This document shows, piece by piece, positions 12,506 to 53,315 of a DNA stretch of 64,000 nt (positions are counted from its first letter, which is position 1; each line of letters begins with the position of its first letter). The stretch comes from Spirochaetae bacterium HGW-Spirochaetae-5 (GTDB lineage Bacteria > Spirochaetota > UBA4802 > UBA5550): NCBI GenBank assembly GCA_002839285.1, contig PGXT01000001.1, positions 79,959 to 143,958 on the forward strand. Reading direction: 5' to 3'. The notes beneath the pieces are model-generated. The model did no database searches and was not told the origin of the DNA. It worked only from the letters and a program-made list of their open reading frames with translations. A program made the translations under genes and the position numbers.

Positions 12506-12579
12506 CGGGGCGTAGCGCAGCCCGGTAGCGTACTTGAATGGGGTTCAAGTGGTCGGAGGTTCGAATCCTCTCGCCCCGA
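12506..12579 (+). tRNA. tRNA-Pro (anticodon GGG)
   Basis: CGGGGCG acceptor pairs with CGCCCCG; CTTGA-atGGGgt-TCAAG anticodon arm; GGTTCGAATCC T arm; discriminator A. Confidence 0.95.
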
Positions 12580-12582
12580 ATA
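12536..12582 (+). repeat. attL core (47-bp direct repeat)
   Basis: gaatggggttcaagtggtcggaggttcgaatcctctcgccccgaata identical to 53269-53315. Confidence 0.95.
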
Positions 12583-12670: not shown

Positions 12671-13753
12671 CTAAATAACACGTTTAATCTTTACTACATT
12701 ATCCATTCTACCTGCTTTTTCCTGAAGATCGTGTCTGGAGAACATGGCATATCTTTTTTGTGTTGTCTGAATAGACTCATGCCCTAATAAGCTCTGAATA
12801 TCTTCAAGACTTACACCCTGATCAAGTAGAGTCTGAGCATAAATATGACGCAGGTCATGAAAATGCAGGTCTGTACCATCACTTATTTTTCTGAAAGAAA
12901 TCATATTCAAAAGCTTACCCCACTGTTTCCGGAGAATGTTATCAGTATATTCTCCAACAACCAGAGAACTGTTATTCTTCATAGAAGACAGTATCTCCAT
13001 TGCTGCAGGAGTTATGGGAACAATCCTTGCCTTTTTGGATTTAGTCTTGTGAGCTGAAAGCCTTATAAAGCGCGAATCAAAATGCACTTCAGACCAATCA
13101 AGAGTGAGTATCTCTTTTTTTCTCATACCGGTCAAAAGAGCGATTACAATAACATTATAAAACTGTCTGTCGATTGTTTGCGCCTTGAGTAAAAACTCTT
13201 CAAGCTGCTCCCTTGATATCCTGACTTCGCGCTCGTTATTTTCTTTAAGTTTAGTCAGAGCAACCGGATTGATAGTGTTGATATATTCCTTACGTATGCA
13301 GTATGAAAAGAACGAAGAAAGGCAGGCCAGATCCCGATTGATTGTAGCATTGCTCACCTTACCTTTTACCCTGGTATTAGCATGTAATGCAAAGACCTTA
13401 TTCCTTCTCCACGTAATGAAATCATCAACATGCGATCGTCTGAAATCAGAGAGTAAAATATTCTTAAAGCAGCTTTTAAACCTCAGTATGGATCTTGATT
13501 CGGCATTTAAAGCTTTTGCAGATTTATTTTGCTCCACATGTATTAAATATTCATCTAAAATTTCAAAGAACTTGAACTGCTTTGTTACGCCTAAAAGAAT
13601 TTTACCTTCCCATTCCCTGAAGAGTGCATCCACCGCAGATTTACGGCACGTGACAACCTTCCGAAACTGATCCCCCTTAAATCTGATATAGAACTGATAT
13701 TTTATATAACCCTTTTCTACACCGGACTGGTCTGTTACTTCTTTGTAGCCCAT
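12671..13753 (-). CDS. int: tyrosine recombinase/phage integrase
   Basis: R..HxxR..Y motifs: ALLTGMRKKEILTLDW, LHFHDLRHIYAQTLLDQGVSLEDIQSLLGHESIQTTQKRYA. Confidence 0.96.
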   Translation of the reverse strand: MGYKEVTDQSGVEKGYIKYQFYIRFKGDQFRKVVTCRKSAVDALFREWEGKILLGVTKQFKFFEILDEYLIHVEQNKSAKALNAESRSILRFKSCFKNILLSDFRRSHVDDFITWRRNKVFALHANTRVKGKVSNATINRDLACLSSFFSYCIRKEYINTINPVALTKLKENNEREVRISREQLEEFLLKAQTIDRQFYNVIVIALLTGMRKKEILTLDWSEVHFDSRFIRLSAHKTKSKKARIVPITPAAMEILSSMKNNSSLVVGEYTDNILRKQWGKLLNMISFRKISDGTDLHFHDLRHIYAQTLLDQGVSLEDIQSLLGHESIQTTQKRYAMFSRHDLQEKAGRMDNVVKIKRVI

Positions 13754-19421: not shown

Positions 19422-19886
19422 ATGAAAATTACACTGCTTAAAAAACCGGTTCTTCCGGAGGATGTTGGAACAGTGGCACTGGTTCCGGTAATGCCTTCTG
19501 ATGTAGATAATGTCAATAAATTCGGCGATGGGGAAATTATCCAGGCGGAGGTTAAGAGGGACCGGTTTTATCCGTTGACGCAGAAGTATTGGGCCCTGTG
19601 TAACCTGGTGGCGAATAATTACCGCCGGGAGGGGCTTGAAATGCTTGATCACAAGAATGTTGTGGATGAATATATTAAGCTAAAATTAAATGTGATTGAG
19701 AGCCGGATTGTTTTTCCGGATGGGCGGATTCATGTCAGAACCGGGAGTATTGCGAATAAGGCGAAAGATAAGGATGAATTTCAGGAGTTTTACGACAGGG
19801 CTGTTGAGGTTATGGAGTGGATCTCGGGGATTCCCAGGTTTGAGTTGGAGTTAAACTGGCATGAGTATGAGTGTGTGGTGCAGTGA
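19422..19886 (+). CDS. phage protein, DUF1367-like
   Basis: KITLLKKPVLPEDVG...VKRDRFYPLTQKYWALCNLVANN...SRIVFPDGRIHVRTGSIA. Confidence 0.55.
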   Translation: MKITLLKKPVLPEDVGTVALVPVMPSDVDNVNKFGDGEIIQAEVKRDRFYPLTQKYWALCNLVANNYRREGLEMLDHKNVVDEYIKLKLNVIESRIVFPDGRIHVRTGSIANKAKDKDEFQEFYDRAVEVMEWISGIPRFELELNWHEYECVVQ

Positions 19887-19895
19887 TTCCAGATT

Positions 19896-19922
19896 AATTG
19901 TGCCACAGCCTGTGGCACAATT
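19896..19922. terminator. perfect 13-bp palindrome between convergent genes
   Basis: aattgtgccacag-c-ctgtggcacaatt; no T-run, so could be an operator instead. Confidence 0.5.
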
Positions 19923-19947
19923 GGATCAAAGAAAGAGCTTGAAATCT

Positions 19948-20024
19948 AAATCTTTTTTAAATCTTTTTTAAATCTCTTTTAAATCTCTTTTAAATCTCTT
20001 TTAAATCTCTTTTAAATCTCTTTT
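19948..20024. repeat. 7 tandem 11-bp units AAATCTYTTTT
   Basis: aaatctttttt x2 then aaatctctttt x5 in exact tandem. Confidence 0.95.
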
Positions 20025-20035
20025 AAAAATCAACT

Positions 20036-21694
20036 TTATGATTTAACCCATTTTGGCTTTGTATCAGTACCAATATTCTTGATTTTATTTGTGATTCGTA
20101 ATTCTGATAAGAGATTCGTTATTTTATTTTTCTTTTGTTTGTCATCCATTAAATCCGGAAGTTTTGTCCACAGAAGATCATCTACATCTTTTCTTTCCAT
20201 AAATTTATGCTGATCAATTGCTTTCATAATAAGATCAAGATAATAGTTTTTATCAAATGCCTTATTCTTTGAATATGCTGCCTTCTGACCTGTTTTTTGA
20301 GCAACTTTCAATGATATATAGTAATTCGGTTTTCGGCCTTCTATGAGTCCTTCAGAACGTAAATGCTTTTCTTCTATATCAGATAGAGATTTATTTTTTT
20401 GAACTTTATCAAGAAGAATTATTTCATCAAGAGTTAGATCGGGATCCCGGGCAAGCAGCCTGGCATATTCTATATCAAGAACTTTACCCGTGATGGTCAA
20501 TTTAACTTTTTCATCTGAAAGATCATAATCCGGCATAGGGAAGAATCTTTGTCTTTGAAAATTGTACATTTTACGGATACCGCCCCCGGCTGTATCGACC
20601 ATTTTAAGATTAAACATAGCTGTTGCTAGAAACCTGTTTCTGTAATACTCTTCAGGGGCATCTTCCCGGACAACACGTTCAACATCACCAGGTATAAAAC
20701 TCCCTAAATTAGTAAATATCAGCTGGTCATCCATTTCAACTACATTGATCATACCACCCTTTGTATAATCCTGATGTGCGATACTATTATTTATTGCTTC
20801 CCTGAGTGTATATGGTTCATACTGGTCTATTTCCTCCGGAAACAGAGTGCCATCTTTGATATATCGATATTTCAAATTTCTAACTTTGGCATATACTTTA
20901 TCAACAGCAAGAAGAAAAGGAAGACCAAATATTGCATAATCCTTATCATTGCCGCGTGAATCTTTCAACAGCCAACGTATCTTAGGATTTGCAGGCTGGA
21001 TAAAATGTTCAGATTCATCTTTTCCGAGAAGAAGTAATGTAGTTCTGGTTATTTTCCCTTTTACAGTAAGTTTTGCTTTATTAAGAAATGTTATAATATC
21101 CCATGAATCTATTTCTACAGCTTTATCAGGAAATTTAGTTTTAAAATTGAGTCTTGCAGTCTGGATTGCATTAATATCAAGATCGTCAACTGTTGCACCC
21201 ATAACTATCTCAGCGCTCCAATCTTCAAGTGTAGCCTGTTGTCTGATTCTTTCTATTTCTTCAATGTTCAAAGGTGAAAGCGATTCACCATTACGGCCGA
21301 AATAATGACCATCAAAATTAATTGGCAAACCCCGAGGAGCAGCTGGAATTTGAAACATGACAACACGACCTTCTGAACGAGGGATTTCATATATTTCAAT
21401 AAACGTTATCCGGTTATTTATCTTGTTGGCAAGTTCATCTTTAAGGCTATCCAGATCTTTACGATTTGAACGATAATTTGACCCAACAATTTTATGGTGC
21501 TTGTCTTCAACTCCAAATACAAGCCAGGCATAGGGTTTTCTTTTAAGGTTTGCCTCATTACTGAGCGCAGAAAAATACTTACCAATTTTTTCAAAGCTAT
21601 AATCATTTTTAGCTTCTTTAAATTCAACAACTTCGGTTTCTGCGGGTAGATTAAGGAGGTTATCTAATATATCATTAAGTTCTTTGGTTTTCAT
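20036..21694 (-). CDS. AlbA_2 (Schlafen-like) DNA-binding plus HATPase_c_4 domain protein
   Basis: ETEVVEFKEAKNDYSFEKIGKYFSALSNEA, WLVFGVEDK, HYFGRNGES, YTLREAINNSIAHQDYTKGG, FTNLGSFIPG, VDTAGGGIRKM. Confidence 0.88.
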   Translation of the reverse strand: MKTKELNDILDNLLNLPAETEVVEFKEAKNDYSFEKIGKYFSALSNEANLKRKPYAWLVFGVEDKHHKIVGSNYRSNRKDLDSLKDELANKINNRITFIEIYEIPRSEGRVVMFQIPAAPRGLPINFDGHYFGRNGESLSPLNIEEIERIRQQATLEDWSAEIVMGATVDDLDINAIQTARLNFKTKFPDKAVEIDSWDIITFLNKAKLTVKGKITRTTLLLLGKDESEHFIQPANPKIRWLLKDSRGNDKDYAIFGLPFLLAVDKVYAKVRNLKYRYIKDGTLFPEEIDQYEPYTLREAINNSIAHQDYTKGGMINVVEMDDQLIFTNLGSFIPGDVERVVREDAPEEYYRNRFLATAMFNLKMVDTAGGGIRKMYNFQRQRFFPMPDYDLSDEKVKLTITGKVLDIEYARLLARDPDLTLDEIILLDKVQKNKSLSDIEEKHLRSEGLIEGRKPNYYISLKVAQKTGQKAAYSKNKAFDKNYYLDLIMKAIDQHKFMERKDVDDLLWTKLPDLMDDKQKKNKITNLLSELRITNKIKNIGTDTKPKWVKS

Positions 21695-21766
21695 TGTTAC
21701 CTGTCACAATTTCAATCTATTTATAAAAATGCCTTCTGGTATTAATTATTAATATAGACAATGATG

Positions 21767-22531
21767 TTACCCGCTAGTTATTTTAACAGTATCTTTTTCA
21801 ATTTCCTGTTTACAACCTTCTTCCCATATTTTTCTACTACGATCAACAAACTCAAGGTATTGTTTAATATGCTTAAAAGATTCGCTATTACGACATACTT
21901 CTATATAGAACTTCTGCAGATGAGAAAGATACCCATTTAAAATGTCATAATACATTTCAAGTCTTAAAACTTCAAATTTTGAATTATGAATAAGTCTAAC
22001 GATGTTTGAAATATGTAATACAAAATTTCTAAAATCATAGAGATATTTTTTATTAGCATCCAGATATTTATCTACATCATGGATTTCAAATCTTTTAACT
22101 TTATCATAATCACGCCATAAATTCTTTAAATTATTAGTAAAGTATGAAGCACCTGACTGGCTATTAAAATCATATAAATTAATAATGTTCGAAATTTGAT
22201 TTAACATGTTAAAAAATGTCGTTTCAAAATTTTGAATGTTCATTATTTCAATCTGATTGCTAACAAGTTTTTTTTGTTCATTTGCTTCTTCTCTTGCAGA
22301 GATCAATTCTTTATGCTGAAGATGAATAGTATATAATAACGCCATAAAGCTCAAAAAAGCAAAAGTTGAACCAAGAACTCCTCCCATGTAATCACCGAAT
22401 ACTCCGGATGTAACTTGATACCCTTGTGAATAACAGATAAATTTATGGTAATATAACCAAATAAATAAAATGAAACCACAGATTAAAAAGATCATCAGAA
22501 TGATCCATTTGTATTTTTTTATAAATTTCAT
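21767..22531 (-). CDS. putative phage abortive-infection membrane protein (putAbiC-like)
   Basis: Two N-terminal TM segments, GSTFAFLSFMALLYTIHLQHKEL, NFETTFFNMLNQISNIINLYDF; overlaps upstream gene by ATGA. Confidence 0.75.
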   Translation of the reverse strand: MKFIKKYKWIILMIFLICGFILFIWLYYHKFICYSQGYQVTSGVFGDYMGGVLGSTFAFLSFMALLYTIHLQHKELISAREEANEQKKLVSNQIEIMNIQNFETTFFNMLNQISNIINLYDFNSQSGASYFTNNLKNLWRDYDKVKRFEIHDVDKYLDANKKYLYDFRNFVLHISNIVRLIHNSKFEVLRLEMYYDILNGYLSHLQKFYIEVCRNSESFKHIKQYLEFVDRSRKIWEEGCKQEIEKDTVKITSG

Positions 22532-25284
22532 ATTGTAGACTCACCATCCACAGCCTTGTTCTTTTTTTTCTTCTCCACTTTAAACATCCCTGCAGTATAC
22601 TTTTCATAAAGCTCAAATAAAAACTCTATCCGCTTTGTTTCATTAACAAACGGCTGGCTACGGTAACAGAGATCAACTGCTTTATCAAGTTCGTTGTGAG
22701 CTTTAACAAGTTTCGGCGGCATAGTCAATGGATCATATAAATCTGCAAGTGAACTGTCAGGGAATTCTTTCCGGACATCAAGGACAGCCTGAGCTTTATC
22801 TTCAACCAGTTTGATATTTTTATCGCTTGGATTTTCCGGCCAGGGGTAGTTGTTATAGACAAGATTAGTATATCTGAAATCACTTTTCATTCGACCACAC
22901 GTATACTTCACCCAAACCATGTGATCTAATGATGATAAAACACCAAAATGATATAAATTTGCATTTGGAATAGCACTCACTAAATCAGTAATTATTGTGT
23001 TTTGATCAAAAAAGCCCATTGGAATATATTTTCTATTTTCACTTGATAATTTAGGAATGACTAAAAAATTGGACTGAGGTTGCCTGTTATCACCGAATAA
23101 ATGAGGTTTGTCAACACAGCTTTTTTTTGACATACCACCATTCTCTCTATCTTCTTTAACAGCTTTTAATCGGCGAAGAATATATTTCATGTTTTTTAAT
23201 TCCGTTGGTGTAGCATCGACTAACCAGAGACAATATCTCTTTTCATTATAAAGAAACTCTCTTGCTCCGATAAGAGGTTTAATAAATTTTCCAGAGAGAG
23301 GTTCATTGTTTAAAAGTTCATCTTTTTCTGATGGGGTCAAGCAAAGATGGCCACCATCTAGTGGTTTACTCCCGATTATAAAAGGTGGGACATCGCAAAT
23401 CGGATTAGGAGTTTTATTAATAAGCACATCTTTTGCATCTACAAGGTATGAATTAATATTTTTTACTTTTAATTCATGCGCTTCGCCTTTTATGTCCTCA
23501 TAATAAAAAATACATTTATTATCGGTATCTATATTTGCAAATCCAATGATCACACAATAAACAGCCGCATTGCCTTTGGCTTCATTACTCCACTTAAAAG
23601 TACGATGTGCAAAATGAATTTTAATACCAAATTTATTTATCAGTTGTCCCCAAAGGATACTTGTTTGTTCACCCTGAACAATTGAGTTGGTGGAAACCAA
23701 ACCCGTTTTAATATTAGTGTTTTGAATATATTTTGCTGCTTTCATATACCAACCAGTAACATAGTCAAGCAATCCACAACCATCTGAATTATTAAAAATA
23801 GTAGTAATTTCCTCACGTTGACTTGCATTCATAAACTTAGAACCGATAAATGGCGGATTCCCTAATATATATGACAGTTCACTCTTTGATACTATGTTCT
23901 CCCAATCAATTCTAAGCGCGTTACCTTGTATTATATTTGCAGATTTCTTAAGAGGAAGTCTTGCAAAGTATTGACCGAATTCGTTGCTTATTAATAAATT
24001 CATCTGGTGGTCTATAAGCCACATCGCAACCTGGGCTATCTGCGCAGGAAACTCTTCACATTCTATACCGTACATCATATCAACATCAAGAAGAACAATT
24101 TCATTAATGTTCAGATATACCTGTCCATGTTTGTTCAGAGTCCGAAGGATTTCCAACTCAAGAAGGCGAAGTTCCCTGTAGGTTATAACAAGGAAGTTTC
24201 CGCATCCGCAGGCAGGATCAAGAAATTTCAATTTGCTTATTTTTACATGCAGCGCTTGAAGTTTATTGTCACTGTTCTTTGACGCTTCAAATTCTTTCCA
24301 CAACTCGTCTAAGAAAAGAGGTCTGATAAGTTTAAGAATATTTTTTTCTGAAGTATAATGTGCTCCGAGGTTTCTCCGTTCTTCCGGATTCATTACACTT
24401 TGGAACATAGCACCGAAAATCGCAGGAGATATTCTGCTCCAATCAATATAACAGCATTCAAGAAGTGATTGCCTCATCTTTGCGTCAAAACTTGCTATAG
24501 CAAGATTTTCTTCAAAAAGCTTTCCATTAACATAAGGGAATGCCTGCAGCTGCTCATCAAGATTTTTAAATCTTTTATCTTCACTTGTATTAAGCACCTG
24601 AAAGAGTTCCTGTAATCTACTTGCAAGATCACTCCCATCTTCACTTGTACGCTGCTCAATATAATCCTGAAACTGCTGCTTATTAAAAATAGCCGTATCT
24701 TCAGCGAAAAGACAGAAAAGAATTCTTACAAGATACAACTCAAGAGCATGGCCCTCATATCCAATTTCCTTTAATCGGTCATGAAATTTACCCATCAGTT
24801 CTGCAGCTTTAATATTTACCGGATCCTGTTCTTTATATATCTTTTTCTGATAGCCTGCTATATATGAAAATCGATCCACATTATGAATTAGTTCGTTGAG
24901 TTTAAAACTGGCTGTTGTCCCCTCTTCAAGATCATAAAGATTAAAGTTTTCAAAATCTGAAATAAGAATCAATTTAGGTAGTTCACTTTGCTTTAAACCT
25001 TGAATATATTCCATCGCCTGGACATAGGCTTTTTCAAGGTCTTTACCCCGGCTTTTCATTTCAACAAGAATATTCTGTTTCCAGAGAAGGTCAATATATC
25101 CATCACGATCATCGAGTTTTTTTACTCTATGTTCAAAAGAACCGAATTTCCGGCTTTCTATCCCAAATACTTTAAAAAAATCTGATAAAAATGGTTTTGC
25201 GTCAGCATCTTCATTTGAAGCATCAGCCCATGTTGTAGAAAACTCAACTGCTTTGTTTTTGATTTCGTTCCAGCTTAATGGCAT
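22528..25284 (-). CDS. MmeI-like fused restriction endonuclease/N6-adenine methyltransferase (Type IIL/IIG)
   Basis: PD-ExK-like DGYIDLLWKQNILVEMKSRGK; MTase motif I FLDPACGCGNFLV; motif IV ILGNPPFIG; NLGAHYTSEKNILKLIRPLF; C-terminal TRD-like region. Confidence 0.93.
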   Translation of the reverse strand: MPLSWNEIKNKAVEFSTTWADASNEDADAKPFLSDFFKVFGIESRKFGSFEHRVKKLDDRDGYIDLLWKQNILVEMKSRGKDLEKAYVQAMEYIQGLKQSELPKLILISDFENFNLYDLEEGTTASFKLNELIHNVDRFSYIAGYQKKIYKEQDPVNIKAAELMGKFHDRLKEIGYEGHALELYLVRILFCLFAEDTAIFNKQQFQDYIEQRTSEDGSDLASRLQELFQVLNTSEDKRFKNLDEQLQAFPYVNGKLFEENLAIASFDAKMRQSLLECCYIDWSRISPAIFGAMFQSVMNPEERRNLGAHYTSEKNILKLIRPLFLDELWKEFEASKNSDNKLQALHVKISKLKFLDPACGCGNFLVITYRELRLLELEILRTLNKHGQVYLNINEIVLLDVDMMYGIECEEFPAQIAQVAMWLIDHQMNLLISNEFGQYFARLPLKKSANIIQGNALRIDWENIVSKSELSYILGNPPFIGSKFMNASQREEITTIFNNSDGCGLLDYVTGWYMKAAKYIQNTNIKTGLVSTNSIVQGEQTSILWGQLINKFGIKIHFAHRTFKWSNEAKGNAAVYCVIIGFANIDTDNKCIFYYEDIKGEAHELKVKNINSYLVDAKDVLINKTPNPICDVPPFIIGSKPLDGGHLCLTPSEKDELLNNEPLSGKFIKPLIGAREFLYNEKRYCLWLVDATPTELKNMKYILRRLKAVKEDRENGGMSKKSCVDKPHLFGDNRQPQSNFLVIPKLSSENRKYIPMGFFDQNTIITDLVSAIPNANLYHFGVLSSLDHMVWVKYTCGRMKSDFRYTNLVYNNYPWPENPSDKNIKLVEDKAQAVLDVRKEFPDSSLADLYDPLTMPPKLVKAHNELDKAVDLCYRSQPFVNETKRIEFLFELYEKYTAGMFKVEKKKKNKAVDGESTI

Positions 25285-25300
25285 TATTTATTCCTTAATA

Positions 25301-26023
25301 TTACATTCTTCTAAATTGTGACCTAGAAGACTCATAACCCTTGATCAAATTTCTTACATCTTTTACGAAATCATTAAATGCATCAATCTTCTGCTTTTCA
25401 CCAACGCAGTGTACTTCAATAAAATATATGCGAGGAATGGACGTAACATATACCATTCCTTTAGAAGACCCATCTAATAACCACCAAAGCGTATCACCTC
25501 CAAAATCAAAGAAAATGGGTGTATTACTATCTTCCCATTCGCGTAGCAACACACACTCATCCGAATGTACTCTCCATACTTTTACATTTGATCCAAATGG
25601 TTTACTCGAATTCAATGTTTTCGAAAATTGTTCAATATCTCTCTTTCTTCTTGTTCCATCAACAACCCATATTGGTTTACCATAAAAAGCATTGCGAGCC
25701 CGACGTTCTTCAGGGTTAAGAAAAGAATGTTGGAATTCTATCACCCATCCATTATTAGTTTTTATATCAGCAATATGCTTTTCACCGTTTTGATCATAAT
25801 GTATCACTTCTTGCCAATCGACAGGAAATTTTTCTTTCCAGGAGCGATGCCATTCCGTTTCGTTCTCCCACCATGGATCACAATTCCTCTTGCCTTTATG
25901 AGACCAATGATGAATTTTTAGTTCCCCACACTTCGAAATCAATTCAGAACCGCAGATAGGGCAAACGCCTTTAGATCCTTTTGTTGCCTCAGCTTTTTCG
26001 TTATTGATTAATGCAAATTTCAT
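25301..26023 (-). CDS. CoiA-like nuclease
   Basis: N-terminal CPICGSELISKCGELKIHHWSHKG; ETEWHRSWKEKFP...HIADIKTNNGWVIEFQHSFLNPEERRARNAFY. Confidence 0.85.
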   Translation of the reverse strand: MKFALINNEKAEATKGSKGVCPICGSELISKCGELKIHHWSHKGKRNCDPWWENETEWHRSWKEKFPVDWQEVIHYDQNGEKHIADIKTNNGWVIEFQHSFLNPEERRARNAFYGKPIWVVDGTRRKRDIEQFSKTLNSSKPFGSNVKVWRVHSDECVLLREWEDSNTPIFFDFGGDTLWWLLDGSSKGMVYVTSIPRIYFIEVHCVGEKQKIDAFNDFVKDVRNLIKGYESSRSQFRRM

Positions 26024-26067
26024 TGTATTTATCCTGCACTATTTAAAACTTAATTCAAAAAAACATT

Positions 26068-26454
26068 TTATTGCAGGTGATAGTATCTTATTGTTGGTTC
26101 CAATGTTCCGTATATCAGCACAAAAGCCACAATATTCTTTTTGTCTATTGTGAACCTGGAAATAAATAGGTCACCGAACACTAAATTGTAATCATTAAGT
26201 TCTTTATGTATTTGATCTAATATTTCGTTTTCAATTTCCTTTTTTGGCTTAAACGGTTCTATTTTAGATAATGTCTTTTTGTTAAATGATTTCTCGAGTA
26301 TCACATCAAAGACCGATTCACCATATGCTTGAATATGTGATCCAAAACTGCCCACGTACTGAAGTGCTGAAATTTTCGTTGTCTCCGAATGCAGAATGTT
26401 ATTTGTTGACACAAATAGTAAAAGCATAATTAAAATCACAGTTATTCTTTTCAT
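26068..26454 (-). CDS. small secreted protein of unknown function, copy 1
   Basis: Likely start MKRITVILIMLLLFVSTNNILHS signal peptide; paralogue of 47275-47661. Confidence 0.8.
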   Translation of the reverse strand: MKRITVILIMLLLFVSTNNILHSETTKISALQYVGSFGSHIQAYGESVFDVILEKSFNKKTLSKIEPFKPKKEIENEILDQIHKELNDYNLVFGDLFISRFTIDKKNIVAFVLIYGTLEPTIRYYHLQ

Positions 26455-26600
26455 TTTAAAAAATACCCCTTTTCTTGTTATTCCAGCATTTAGATAATAT
26501 ATTTTCACAGTCTGTTGTTTCTGGCCACATCCAAATTTTTGTACAATGTTTCTTAGTCGAAAACACTAAACTTTTAATGATTGAAAACCATATTAAAATC

Positions 26601-27458
26601 TTAATTCTCAAATTTTTCAGCTAATTTTCTAATTTGCTCTGGTACTCCCCATGAGTGAGAAACTTGGCTATTTTCGTTTATTGCATCGTTCATCTTCGCA
26701 ATATGTTTACTAGTAACATATTGCGAAAAATTTATAAGCTCTATTAGACGTTTCGATTCATCAAATGAATTTGCATTCATAAGCATTTCAACCAATTTAC
26801 TAGTAACTTTAGGTCCAACTAATGGATTTTGTATACAAAGTTCAAAAATTTCTTTTGCTAACAGTGATGCTGTTTTTCCATGGCCTTGTAATGCTTGATA
26901 TTTACCAATAAAACCGTATGGATCCAAACCTTGTCTTACTGCTATAACTTGTAGCTGTCTCCCTATAGCAACCCCGACTTCCTGATCGCACCAATTACTT
27001 TCCTTGAAACCTGGTGATAACAAAGCTATAAGTGCATCCATAGTTGCTAAAGCTGATTGAATTTCTATTTGCCATTCTTTTGTGGGCTCTATATCTTCAT
27101 GCGCGATAAACGCTGTGATACCAAATTTTCTAAGTTGATTTCGCAACTTAGAAGTTTCTACTTTTGTAGTTGCTAAATGACTCAAAAATATTCTTGCATC
27201 ACTTTCTTCCCAAAAAGAAGGTGATGATGATGTTTCAAGTTCACTAGCTAACCCTAAATGTTTTGCAAGATCAAGAAGTGACTCATCCAGAGCATCATTA
27301 AGCATTTCAACAACATAACGCTCTTTGTCACTGCCCGACCATTGATCTGTCCACGGCAGGCCAAACTGTTTCAAAGTAAGATCCAAAAGACCCCAATCTT
27401 CCTTAGCTAGTTCTTTTGATATTTCTTTTATATGTTTTATTCTTTCTGATGGACTCAT
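26601..27458 (-). CDS. TIR-domain protein with N-terminal helical domain
   Basis: DARIFLSHLATTKVETSKLRNQLRKFGITAFIAHEDIEPTKEWQIEIQSALATMDALIALLSPGFKESNWCDQEVGVAIGR; Glu in SNWCDQE at the TIR NADase catalytic position. Confidence 0.9.
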   Translation of the reverse strand: MSPSERIKHIKEISKELAKEDWGLLDLTLKQFGLPWTDQWSGSDKERYVVEMLNDALDESLLDLAKHLGLASELETSSSPSFWEESDARIFLSHLATTKVETSKLRNQLRKFGITAFIAHEDIEPTKEWQIEIQSALATMDALIALLSPGFKESNWCDQEVGVAIGRQLQVIAVRQGLDPYGFIGKYQALQGHGKTASLLAKEIFELCIQNPLVGPKVTSKLVEMLMNANSFDESKRLIELINFSQYVTSKHIAKMNDAINENSQVSHSWGVPEQIRKLAEKFEN

Positions 27459-27465
27459 GTTATTC

Positions 27466-28431
27466 TTAATCCTTAATTACTTCTTTGCATCTTTCACATA
27501 TCCATCTTGAAGAAACACGTTTTACAACAACTTGCATTTCACAACTATCACAATATGCAAGCTTACCATTCCGTTTCGTGCTGCCAATAATTAACTGAAA
27601 TATACCTATTGCAATCAGTACCCATGAACCAATATTTAAAAAATCAAGTGCTTCTTTTTTAAGATACCATCTATTGTTTTCATATGAATCGTAAGTATTT
27701 AAAAGCGTTTGAAACATATTGTCGGAAATTAAACTGGATTGATCATGTTCCGGAATAAATATTTTTAATATGTACATTCCAAGCCCTATTAATAAAAACC
27801 CAAACATTATCCCGATCGGTCGTATTTCTAATGGTGGTATTTGAGGTATATAAATATTAGCTGGTTCATTAATCTTGATTTCAGGGGATGAAGTCGATTG
27901 TTTTGCATTTTTCATTACAGGGGGTTTTTCTGGTACTGCAATCTTGTTTTTAATTTCACCTTGGTCAATGATTTCGTTCAGTTCGCCTTTAGGAGTGTAA
28001 AGAATATTTTTTATTAATATCAATATTTTTTGTATTATTAAAATAATAGATTTTCTAAAAAAGAGAACCGTTCCGCAAATTAAAAAAACTGCAATTGTTA
28101 ATAATATATAAGAAATATAATTTGTCTTTTCAACGATCGATTCATTTGACAAAAGACCACTAAAAACCCATCCTTGATGAGTTTTATACTTTACTTCAGC
28201 CCAAGGCGCTGTAATACCATAAAATGTGTTTTTAAAATCAGAAAATTTTATTATCGTTACTTTTTCTTTATAAGGTATAAGAGTAATTTTTTCACAATCA
28301 ACACTTGAACATTTCCGTAAATATAGACCTTCTTTAGTTGAAACATAAGCGTTGTTTATATTAGCAGAATACAGATTATTTAATAATAATAGAAAAATTA
28401 AAGATGAAATAATAAGAAGTATTTTTTTCAT
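27466..28431 (-). CDS. membrane protein with secreted SH3b domain, TM helices and C-terminal zinc ribbon
   Basis: Signal peptide; YVSTKEGLYLRKCSSVDCEKITLIPYKEKVTII...WAEVKYKTHQGWVFSGLL (SH3_3); several TM; CDSC...CERC. Confidence 0.85.
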   Translation of the reverse strand: MKKILLIISSLIFLLLLNNLYSANINNAYVSTKEGLYLRKCSSVDCEKITLIPYKEKVTIIKFSDFKNTFYGITAPWAEVKYKTHQGWVFSGLLSNESIVEKTNYISYILLTIAVFLICGTVLFFRKSIILIIQKILILIKNILYTPKGELNEIIDQGEIKNKIAVPEKPPVMKNAKQSTSSPEIKINEPANIYIPQIPPLEIRPIGIMFGFLLIGLGMYILKIFIPEHDQSSLISDNMFQTLLNTYDSYENNRWYLKKEALDFLNIGSWVLIAIGIFQLIIGSTKRNGKLAYCDSCEMQVVVKRVSSRWICERCKEVIKD

Positions 28432-28471
28432 ACTTCACTCCATTGATAGAGATTTACTTAAAAATTACAAA

Positions 28472-28720
28472 ATGCAGAAATCAAAACAGAATCTAATTGA
28501 TATTTGTGAATGCTGCCGCATCCGGAGAGCCGACCACCTACATCACAAACTCTCCCAAACAAAACTTTTCCGGAAAATTTATCCGGAATTCATTGATCAT
28601 CCCGACAATCTACTGCACTACTGTGCAACATGTCACAACAATAAATCAATCATAAAATGGTCTGAGAGTGAATTTTGTGTTCATTTTAATATAAAAATTC
28701 GTAGTAAAAGCGGAAAATGA
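28472..28720 (+). CDS. small HNH-like nuclease
   Basis: CECCRIRRADHLHHKLSQTK...NLLHYCATCHNNK; adjacent to terminase; internal start preferred over 28352. Confidence 0.7.
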   Translation: MQKSKQNLIDICECCRIRRADHLHHKLSQTKLFRKIYPEFIDHPDNLLHYCATCHNNKSIIKWSESEFCVHFNIKIRSKSGK

Positions 28721-28773: not shown

Positions 28774-30402
28774 ATGAAAGTCTTTGACACAACTTCTTTT
28801 GTAGCCCTTGCCGAGCCGATACTCCTCCGGCTCGGCATCCATTCTATTGATTTCAGATACGATTACGAAACTCTCTGCATTGAACTTGCAGTACTTGAAA
28901 AGAAAAACTTCCGGGCATATTTAAGACAGGTAAGGCTGATCGCCGAGGATGATTTCTTCTTTTTTGCCTGGTATGTTCTTGGTCTGCCTCTCCTCCACCC
29001 ATATCTGCTTGCCCGGTGTTACGAGATACAGGACACTGTTTCAGAAAAGTATTTATATATATCCGCTGCACGGGATCACTGGAAATCCGTTCTTAATACA
29101 ATAGCGTTTCCAATATGGCAGACAACTATCGATCCTGATCAGACTTTTGCAATCCTAAGCTTCCAGCGTGATAAATCCCTGGGGCAGCTCATGTCTATAA
29201 AGCAGATCCTTGAAACAAACTCTCTGCTTCACCAGCTCTGGCCTAATATATTTTACGAAAGGAAACAGCAGGCCGCTAAGTGGAATATATACAGCGGTCT
29301 TTTTATCAAACGTGAAAGCACAGTAAAAGAAGGTACTTACAGCGCGTGGGGGCTTGTTGAGAATTCCCCTGTTTCGAATCACTTTGACTGGCTATTCGTT
29401 GACGATCCCGTTACCCTTGATAATACCGCAACTGTTGAGCAGATTGAAAAGGTTAAAAAGTCATACCGGATGATGGCCGGTTATGGTACACGAAGGGTAA
29501 GAATCAGGACTATCACCACCAGGTACGATGTAAATGACATTTCAGCTGATCTTTTAAAGGATAAGCGATATAAAAAGATTATTATCCCCTCCGAAGTTGA
29601 TGAATCCGGTAAAGCAAAACTTGACGGTATTCCGGTATTCAAGACCAGGGAGGAGCTTGATAATATCAGACTTGACTTCGGAGACGCCGATTACTGTTCA
29701 CAGATGCTGCAGGACCCGACAGCTTCAAATGAGCGCGGTCTTGATCTTAACTGGATCACTTATTACGAGGCTCTACCCTCTACAATGACAAAATATCTCC
29801 TGTGCGATCCTGCAGGGAGTAAGAATAAAACTTCAGACTCAACGGTAATGGCTGTTATCGGTTGTTCACCCCTTCGAAGATTTTTCCTGGTCGATATGAT
29901 CCGGGATAAACTCGATGTTTATGAACGGTTCCAGATGCTGAAGGATATGTATATCAAACATGATCCTTATGATGTATTTTATGAAGTTCAGGCTTTAAAC
30001 TCCGACCTTGAGGTTTTTGACCGGGAGATGGAAAGAGAGAAGTTTTACTTTCCCATCCAGAAATTCCAGAGCAATATCAATAACTCCAAAAAGAAGCGTA
30101 TAATTTCACTCGGCAGTCTTATCCGGAAGAAAGAATTCCTTATCCCTCATGAGATATTCTACACTGACATTACAGATGTTGAAAGAGAACTTATCTCTGA
30201 ATTCATAAATGAAGAGTACACCAAATTCCCTCATAACAAGGCACACGATGACATGCTCGACTGCATGGCAATGATTCAGAATGTCGATGTTGTTTTCCCT
30301 GGAGAAGTTGAGGAAGAACCTGTTAAAACAGACGGACGTAAACACCCGGCATTTACAAGAACTGAAAAAGGTGCAACCTGGCAATCCTCTTTTGTATGGT
30401 AA
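28774..30402 (+). CDS. terL: terminase large subunit
   Basis: YISAARDHWKSVLNTIAFPIWQ; Walker B FDWLFVDDPVT; nuclease YLLCDPAGSKNKTSDSTVMAVIG; HDDMLDCMAM. Confidence 0.92.
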   Translation: MKVFDTTSFVALAEPILLRLGIHSIDFRYDYETLCIELAVLEKKNFRAYLRQVRLIAEDDFFFFAWYVLGLPLLHPYLLARCYEIQDTVSEKYLYISAARDHWKSVLNTIAFPIWQTTIDPDQTFAILSFQRDKSLGQLMSIKQILETNSLLHQLWPNIFYERKQQAAKWNIYSGLFIKRESTVKEGTYSAWGLVENSPVSNHFDWLFVDDPVTLDNTATVEQIEKVKKSYRMMAGYGTRRVRIRTITTRYDVNDISADLLKDKRYKKIIIPSEVDESGKAKLDGIPVFKTREELDNIRLDFGDADYCSQMLQDPTASNERGLDLNWITYYEALPSTMTKYLLCDPAGSKNKTSDSTVMAVIGCSPLRRFFLVDMIRDKLDVYERFQMLKDMYIKHDPYDVFYEVQALNSDLEVFDREMEREKFYFPIQKFQSNINNSKKKRIISLGSLIRKKEFLIPHEIFYTDITDVERELISEFINEEYTKFPHNKAHDDMLDCMAMIQNVDVVFPGEVEEEPVKTDGRKHPAFTRTEKGATWQSSFVW

Positions 30403-53268: not shown

Positions 53269-53315
53269 GAATGGGGTTCAAGTGGTCGGAGGTTCGAATC
53301 CTCTCGCCCCGAATA
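53269..53315 (+). repeat. attR core (47-bp direct repeat)
   Basis: Identical to 12536-12582. Confidence 0.95.

Follow-up and report, generated by a model that had tools for sequence, protein, structure and literature searches.

A TIR protein in the variable cargo slot of a spirochaete prophage, encoded directly downstream of an SH3-domain membrane protein

In the genome of Spirochaetae bacterium HGW-Spirochaetae-5, a gene for a TIR protein follows a gene for a membrane protein that carries a bacterial SH3 domain, and this arrangement raises the question of whether the two form one system, with a sensor in the envelope and an effector in the cytoplasm, or are separate genes that share a site. 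We analysed a window of 64,000 nucleotides around the pair, and coordinates are positions in this window unless a locus is named. Both open reading frames are real and lie on the minus strand with a gap of 7 nucleotides from the SH3_3 gene to the TIR gene, as an earlier note on this DNA had it, and their features go far beyond what chance would produce. They stand at the head of a block of seven genes (20036-28431) and are probably co-transcribed. The block reads, from its head:

27466-28431, minus strand: SH3_3 (bacterial SH3) protein, 321 aa, with a signal peptide, an extracytoplasmic SH3b domain (residues 35-95), a transmembrane (TM) segment, a Pro-rich linker, two more TM segments and a C-terminal CxxC pair
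26601-27458, minus strand: TIR protein, 285 aa, with an N-terminal helical domain (1-75), the TIR domain (~88-210) and a C-terminal helical domain (215-284)
26068-26508, minus strand: exported protein, 146 aa, with a signal peptide from a later ATG (~26454)
25301-26023, minus strand: CoiA-like protein with a CoiA_N zinc domain and a nuclease domain below cut-off
22528-25284, minus strand: MmeI-type IIG restriction enzyme-methyltransferase, 918 aa (MmeI_Mtase, 5.1e-92; REase_MTase_IIG, 1187 bits)
21767-22531, minus strand: membrane protein, 254 aa (phrog_8999, function unknown), overlapping the restriction-modification (RM) gene by 4 nucleotides
20036-21694, minus strand: AlbA_2/Schlafen and HATPase_c_4 protein, 552 aa, assigned by domain matches

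The 918-aa enzyme has N, helicase-spacer, MTase, TRD and C domains. No relatives of the 146-aa protein were found, including in a search of viral contigs. The AlbA_2/Schlafen protein weakly matches the PADLOC candidate PDC-S50.

The block sits inside a complete-looking prophage of ~40.7 kb that is bounded by an exact repeat at a tRNA gene and also encodes an anti-repressor, RecT, replication proteins, SSB and portal and head proteins. The features that place the block within it are:

12536-12582, plus strand: attL, a 47-bp repeat at the 3' end of tRNA-Pro, adjoining the integrase gene
12671-13753, minus strand: integrase, next to tRNA-Pro
19422-19886, plus strand: NinB-like recombination gene, the left border of the slot, collinear in related phages
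19875-28490, no strand: variable cargo slot, with DNA homology to related phages on both sides and none inside (blastn against L055, L058 and L138)
28469-28720, plus strand: small HNH-like gene, the right border, conserved before the terminase gene in related phages, its start inferred from these relatives
28774-30402, plus strand: terminase large subunit, TerL (phrog_38, 1e-47)
53269-53315, plus strand: attR, an exact copy of the 47-bp repeat

The related phages, one of them in a genome of the same family (G016), have terminases that are 74-83% identical. Homology with L055 runs to the end of the NinB-like gene (19874) and restarts at 28502; with L058 and L138 it restarts at 28491. In L055 the slot is occupied by genes for a IIG-type enzyme other than ours (Eco57I/TaqI_C) and a further CoiA_N protein, plus unknown genes; in L058 and L138 it holds two methyltransferase-like genes. 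All of this cargo is antisense. The cargo genes have a GC content of 27-37% versus 42-45% for the flanking phage genes. The slot is thus a variable cargo and defence hotspot, with conserved borders and cargo that differs between related phages. Hotspots of P2 and P4 prophages and satellites likewise have conserved borders and swapped defence cargo that includes TIR proteins (PMC9122126), but belong to another phage lineage and another slot position. In our prophage and in L055 alike, a IIG-type restriction enzyme has a CoiA_N protein next to it (L055:5526-6395), and the two CoiA_N proteins have no direct similarity by phmmer.

We then asked what kind of TIR protein the slot carries. The 285-aa protein matches TIR_2 (PF13676; E 6.9e-15, 56.1 bits, Pfam cut-off 28) and TIR (PF01582; E 5.3e-7, 30 bits, cut-off 21.3). 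The glutamate that the earlier note had placed at the position used for NAD+ cleavage is E160 in the motif WCDQE; this putative catalytic residue is invariant across an alignment of 12 relatives, and in an alignment with the structure of a plant TIR (RPP1 TIR, 5teb) the motif falls on WC..E. AlphaFold2, run with the 12-sequence alignment, predicted a helical domain before the TIR (1-75) and another after it (215-284), both at pLDDT ~80-90; the first had been described previously and the second had not. The TIR core itself was modelled at low confidence (pLDDT ~35-60), and Foldseek consequently found nothing in the PDB at E<=0.001, with SARM1 as the best weak match. The prediction thus speaks neither for nor against the active site, and the TIR assignment therefore rests on the HMMs, the invariant WCDQE and the alignment with the plant WC..E. 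These data support an intact, defence-like TIR of the NADase type, which is predicted to cleave NAD+.

Relatives of this protein are rare and scattered. We found them in 7 other genomes among 393 in the phylum and at 12 loci in GTDB contigs, where the best is 63% identical over its full length; the nearest full-length relatives are in an Oxalobacter MAG (63% identity) and another genome (46%). Further relatives are present on 6 plasmids, in 3 genomes of another class and, by a profile search with the TIR alignment, in 9 viral contigs. Searching the viral contigs with the TIR protein alone as query, 50,697 phage records for a relative and plasmids with the N-terminal domain alone returned nothing. 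Each relative is encoded by a single gene, and the contexts are unrelated to one another: plasmids, chromosomes, prophages and a site beside a P4-like primase. At this last site (L147:5546-8933), a P4-like primase-helicase gene is followed directly by the TIR gene; this member of the family is probably carried by a satellite.

Restriction genes recur near these TIR genes, an observation that we give as a description and not as a test of association. MmeI-type genes are found in our prophage, in L054 (where the gene overlaps the TIR gene), in L040 and, as a remnant, in L053; a type I RM operon contains or adjoins the TIR gene in L141, L142 and L156; Dcm/Vsr lies nearby in L144 and GmrSD_N in L155. 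Within the type I RM operon of L156 (4341-10158), genes for a reverse transcriptase, a TIR protein and HsdR are consecutive. The L156 TIR matches the PADLOC candidate PDC-S66 over a longer stretch than our prophage TIR, which resembles it weakly (E 0.0095) and in the TIR region only.

Among named systems, we considered Thoeris. A weak, below-cut-off match to the HMM ThsB_TIR (18.7 bits, cut-off 21.2) suggests a TIR fold like that of ThsB; the ThsB model of PADLOC also matched weakly, and the type III model ThcB4 gave 42 bits against a cut-off of 220. No ThsA-type effector domain is present among the scanned neighbours, unlike in Thoeris. By these tests the protein is not Thoeris, since it has no ThsA-type partner and the ThsB model stays below cut-off.

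The product of the upstream gene agrees with its earlier description in having a signal peptide, an SH3_3 domain, TM helices and a Pro-rich linker (residues ~168-206); its C-terminal zinc ribbon is a reading by eye of CDSC (294) and CERC (312), which are compatible with a small ribbon, and was reported by no Pfam model. The SH3_3 match (PF08239; E 9.5e-7, 29.4 bits) is just above the Pfam cut-off of 27. Hydropathy segments lie at residues 4-22 (the signal), 106-124, 128-146, 201-219 and 264-282, and the charge pattern fits an SH3b domain outside and a C terminus inside the cell. A single-sequence fold was unusable (pLDDT 49). SH3_3 matches are common in the phylum (85 of 393 genomes), and SH3b matches were found on Leptospira plasmids. 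The membrane and zinc-ribbon half is without relatives in the 393 phylum genomes, and a search of viral contigs with the protein found none.

Several of these properties would suit a factor for superinfection exclusion or lysogenic conversion that is unconnected with the TIR protein, whether or not the latter acts in defence. The topology places the protein in the envelope, the gene is in a prophage and has a lower GC content than the TIR gene (28% versus 35%), and half of the protein has no relatives. This last point is, however, uninformative on function, and none of the known exclusion proteins proved homologous to it in our searches. We consider this specific role unlikely; it is compatible with the explanation of the locus that we favour below.

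To determine whether the SH3_3 gene belongs with the TIR gene, we checked 28 other TIR loci for an adjacent SH3_3 gene, 21 of them as whole genomes or records with the Pfam SH3_3 model and the others by scanning neighbouring genes and by eye. The Pfam model was used because a home-made SH3 HMM scored the one positive gene poorly (E 0.033) whereas Pfam recognised it clearly (2.9e-10). That gene is in G159, a genome of the same taxonomic order, where the TIR gene is followed after 4 nucleotides by a gene for a 366-aa protein with one predicted TM segment and a C-terminal SH3_3 domain (L140:4104-6290, G159:C137). The other 27 loci have no adjacent SH3_3 gene, and the closest TIR relatives (L043 and L155) have neither an SH3b nor a membrane partner. 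The G159 protein is not an orthologue of ours: nothing detectable is shared beyond the SH3 domain, the gene order is inverted, and the protein has no relatives elsewhere in what we searched, viral contigs included. Homologues of both genes side by side in several genomes, the check proposed in the earlier note, were therefore not what we observed; the outcome comes close to what that note had named as refuting the pair, neighbourhoods in which the two genes never co-occur. As SH3_3-type proteins are common in the phylum, roughly 0.04 adjacencies would be expected by chance at its other TIR loci, a figure inferred from ~11 SH3_3 matches in G159; against this, the G159 case is suggestive, not decisive.

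These counts bear on the original proposal of an SH3b sensor coupled to a TIR effector, and on a more detailed form of it in which SH3b would sense wall damage or phage entry from outside and TIR activation would proceed through the cytoplasmic linker or the zinc ribbon. The shared strand and 7-nucleotide gap, a topology with the zinc-ribbon-like end inside, and a second adjacency in a genome of the same taxonomic order, again with a TM-bearing SH3 protein, are what such a module would look like. The lack of an SH3_3 neighbour at nearly all other loci, the unrelated architectures and reversed order of the two cases, and the abundance of SH3_3 proteins in the phylum make it distinctly improbable. 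Taken more broadly, with either gene as the sensor, a true module of TIR and SH3b proteins is still rather unlikely. We would put forward just as tentatively the idea that SH3b-TM and TIR proteins were joined more than once in this bacterial order, in our prophage and in G159, with differing architecture and gene order, as an envelope-coupled TIR system in which the extracytoplasmic SH3b domain either governs a cytoplasmic NADase or is governed by it.

A pair that resembles Thoeris with the roles reversed, in which the TIR protein converts NAD+ into a nucleotide signal and the effector is the membrane protein, which breaks the membrane, has a published precedent. The P2-like prophage AC1 carries TIR and TM genes, three in all, in a variable defence slot; they are reported to be protective, and a TIR-made nucleotide signal with a membrane-breaking effector has been proposed for it (PMC9122126). 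Our locus is alike in combining TIR and TM genes in such a slot and differs in gene number, phage lineage and slot position (before TerL); we compared the two by description, not by sequence. The prophage TIR gene adjoins that of a multi-TM protein, and a small TM protein also lies beside some TIR relatives, but TM neighbours are not significantly enriched (8/32 versus 15%, p=0.13), the closest relatives lack one, and domain and defence-model scans of the SH3b protein found no ligand-binding domain (SLOG, Macro or CARF). We regard this arrangement as very unlikely.

The explanation that we favour, and consider probable, is a standalone, prophage-borne TIR effector of abortive infection, while the SH3b membrane protein is encoded by a cargo gene of its own, which lies upstream and is probably on the same transcript. 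The helical flanking domains would hold the TIR inactive as long as no component of a competing phage is recognised; once triggered, the protein would assemble and cleave NAD+ using E160, and the cell would die or stop before the incoming phage multiplies. The TIR gene would be one item of an antisense cargo, with the type IIG RM enzyme, the CoiA-like and AlbA/Schlafen proteins and membrane proteins, between recombination and packaging genes. A published parallel for both the trigger and the killing is SpbK of Bacillus ICEBs1, an NADase with an N domain and a TIR, for which a phage portal protein serves as the trigger (PMC11984713). SpbK, compared here by description and not by sequence, is also borne on a mobile element, is of similar size, has an N-terminal non-enzymatic domain and a TIR with a catalytic glutamate, and works as one gene; its TIR is C-terminal, whereas the prophage protein has a further helical domain after the TIR. 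Counting against independent cargo are the 7-nucleotide gap at our locus and the 4-nucleotide gap in G159, which pure independence does not predict. Of the defence pair proposed originally, the supported part is a defence-like TIR of the NADase type, carried as prophage cargo together with the IIG enzyme and the CoiA-like and AlbA/Schlafen proteins; a system of SH3b and TIR is not supported.

The TIR protein is thus best read as a known kind, a standalone abortive-infection gene in prophage cargo. What the locus contributes is a prophage lineage whose variable defence slot lies ahead of the terminase gene, together with a TIR family of helical-TIR-helical architecture that recurs near restriction genes and on phages and satellites. 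Were the coupling to SH3b true, two genes would connect a bacterial TIR immune effector with a sensor in the envelope. For the present, the TIR protein is an ordinary and useful defence candidate, and its pairing with the SH3b protein is a lead.
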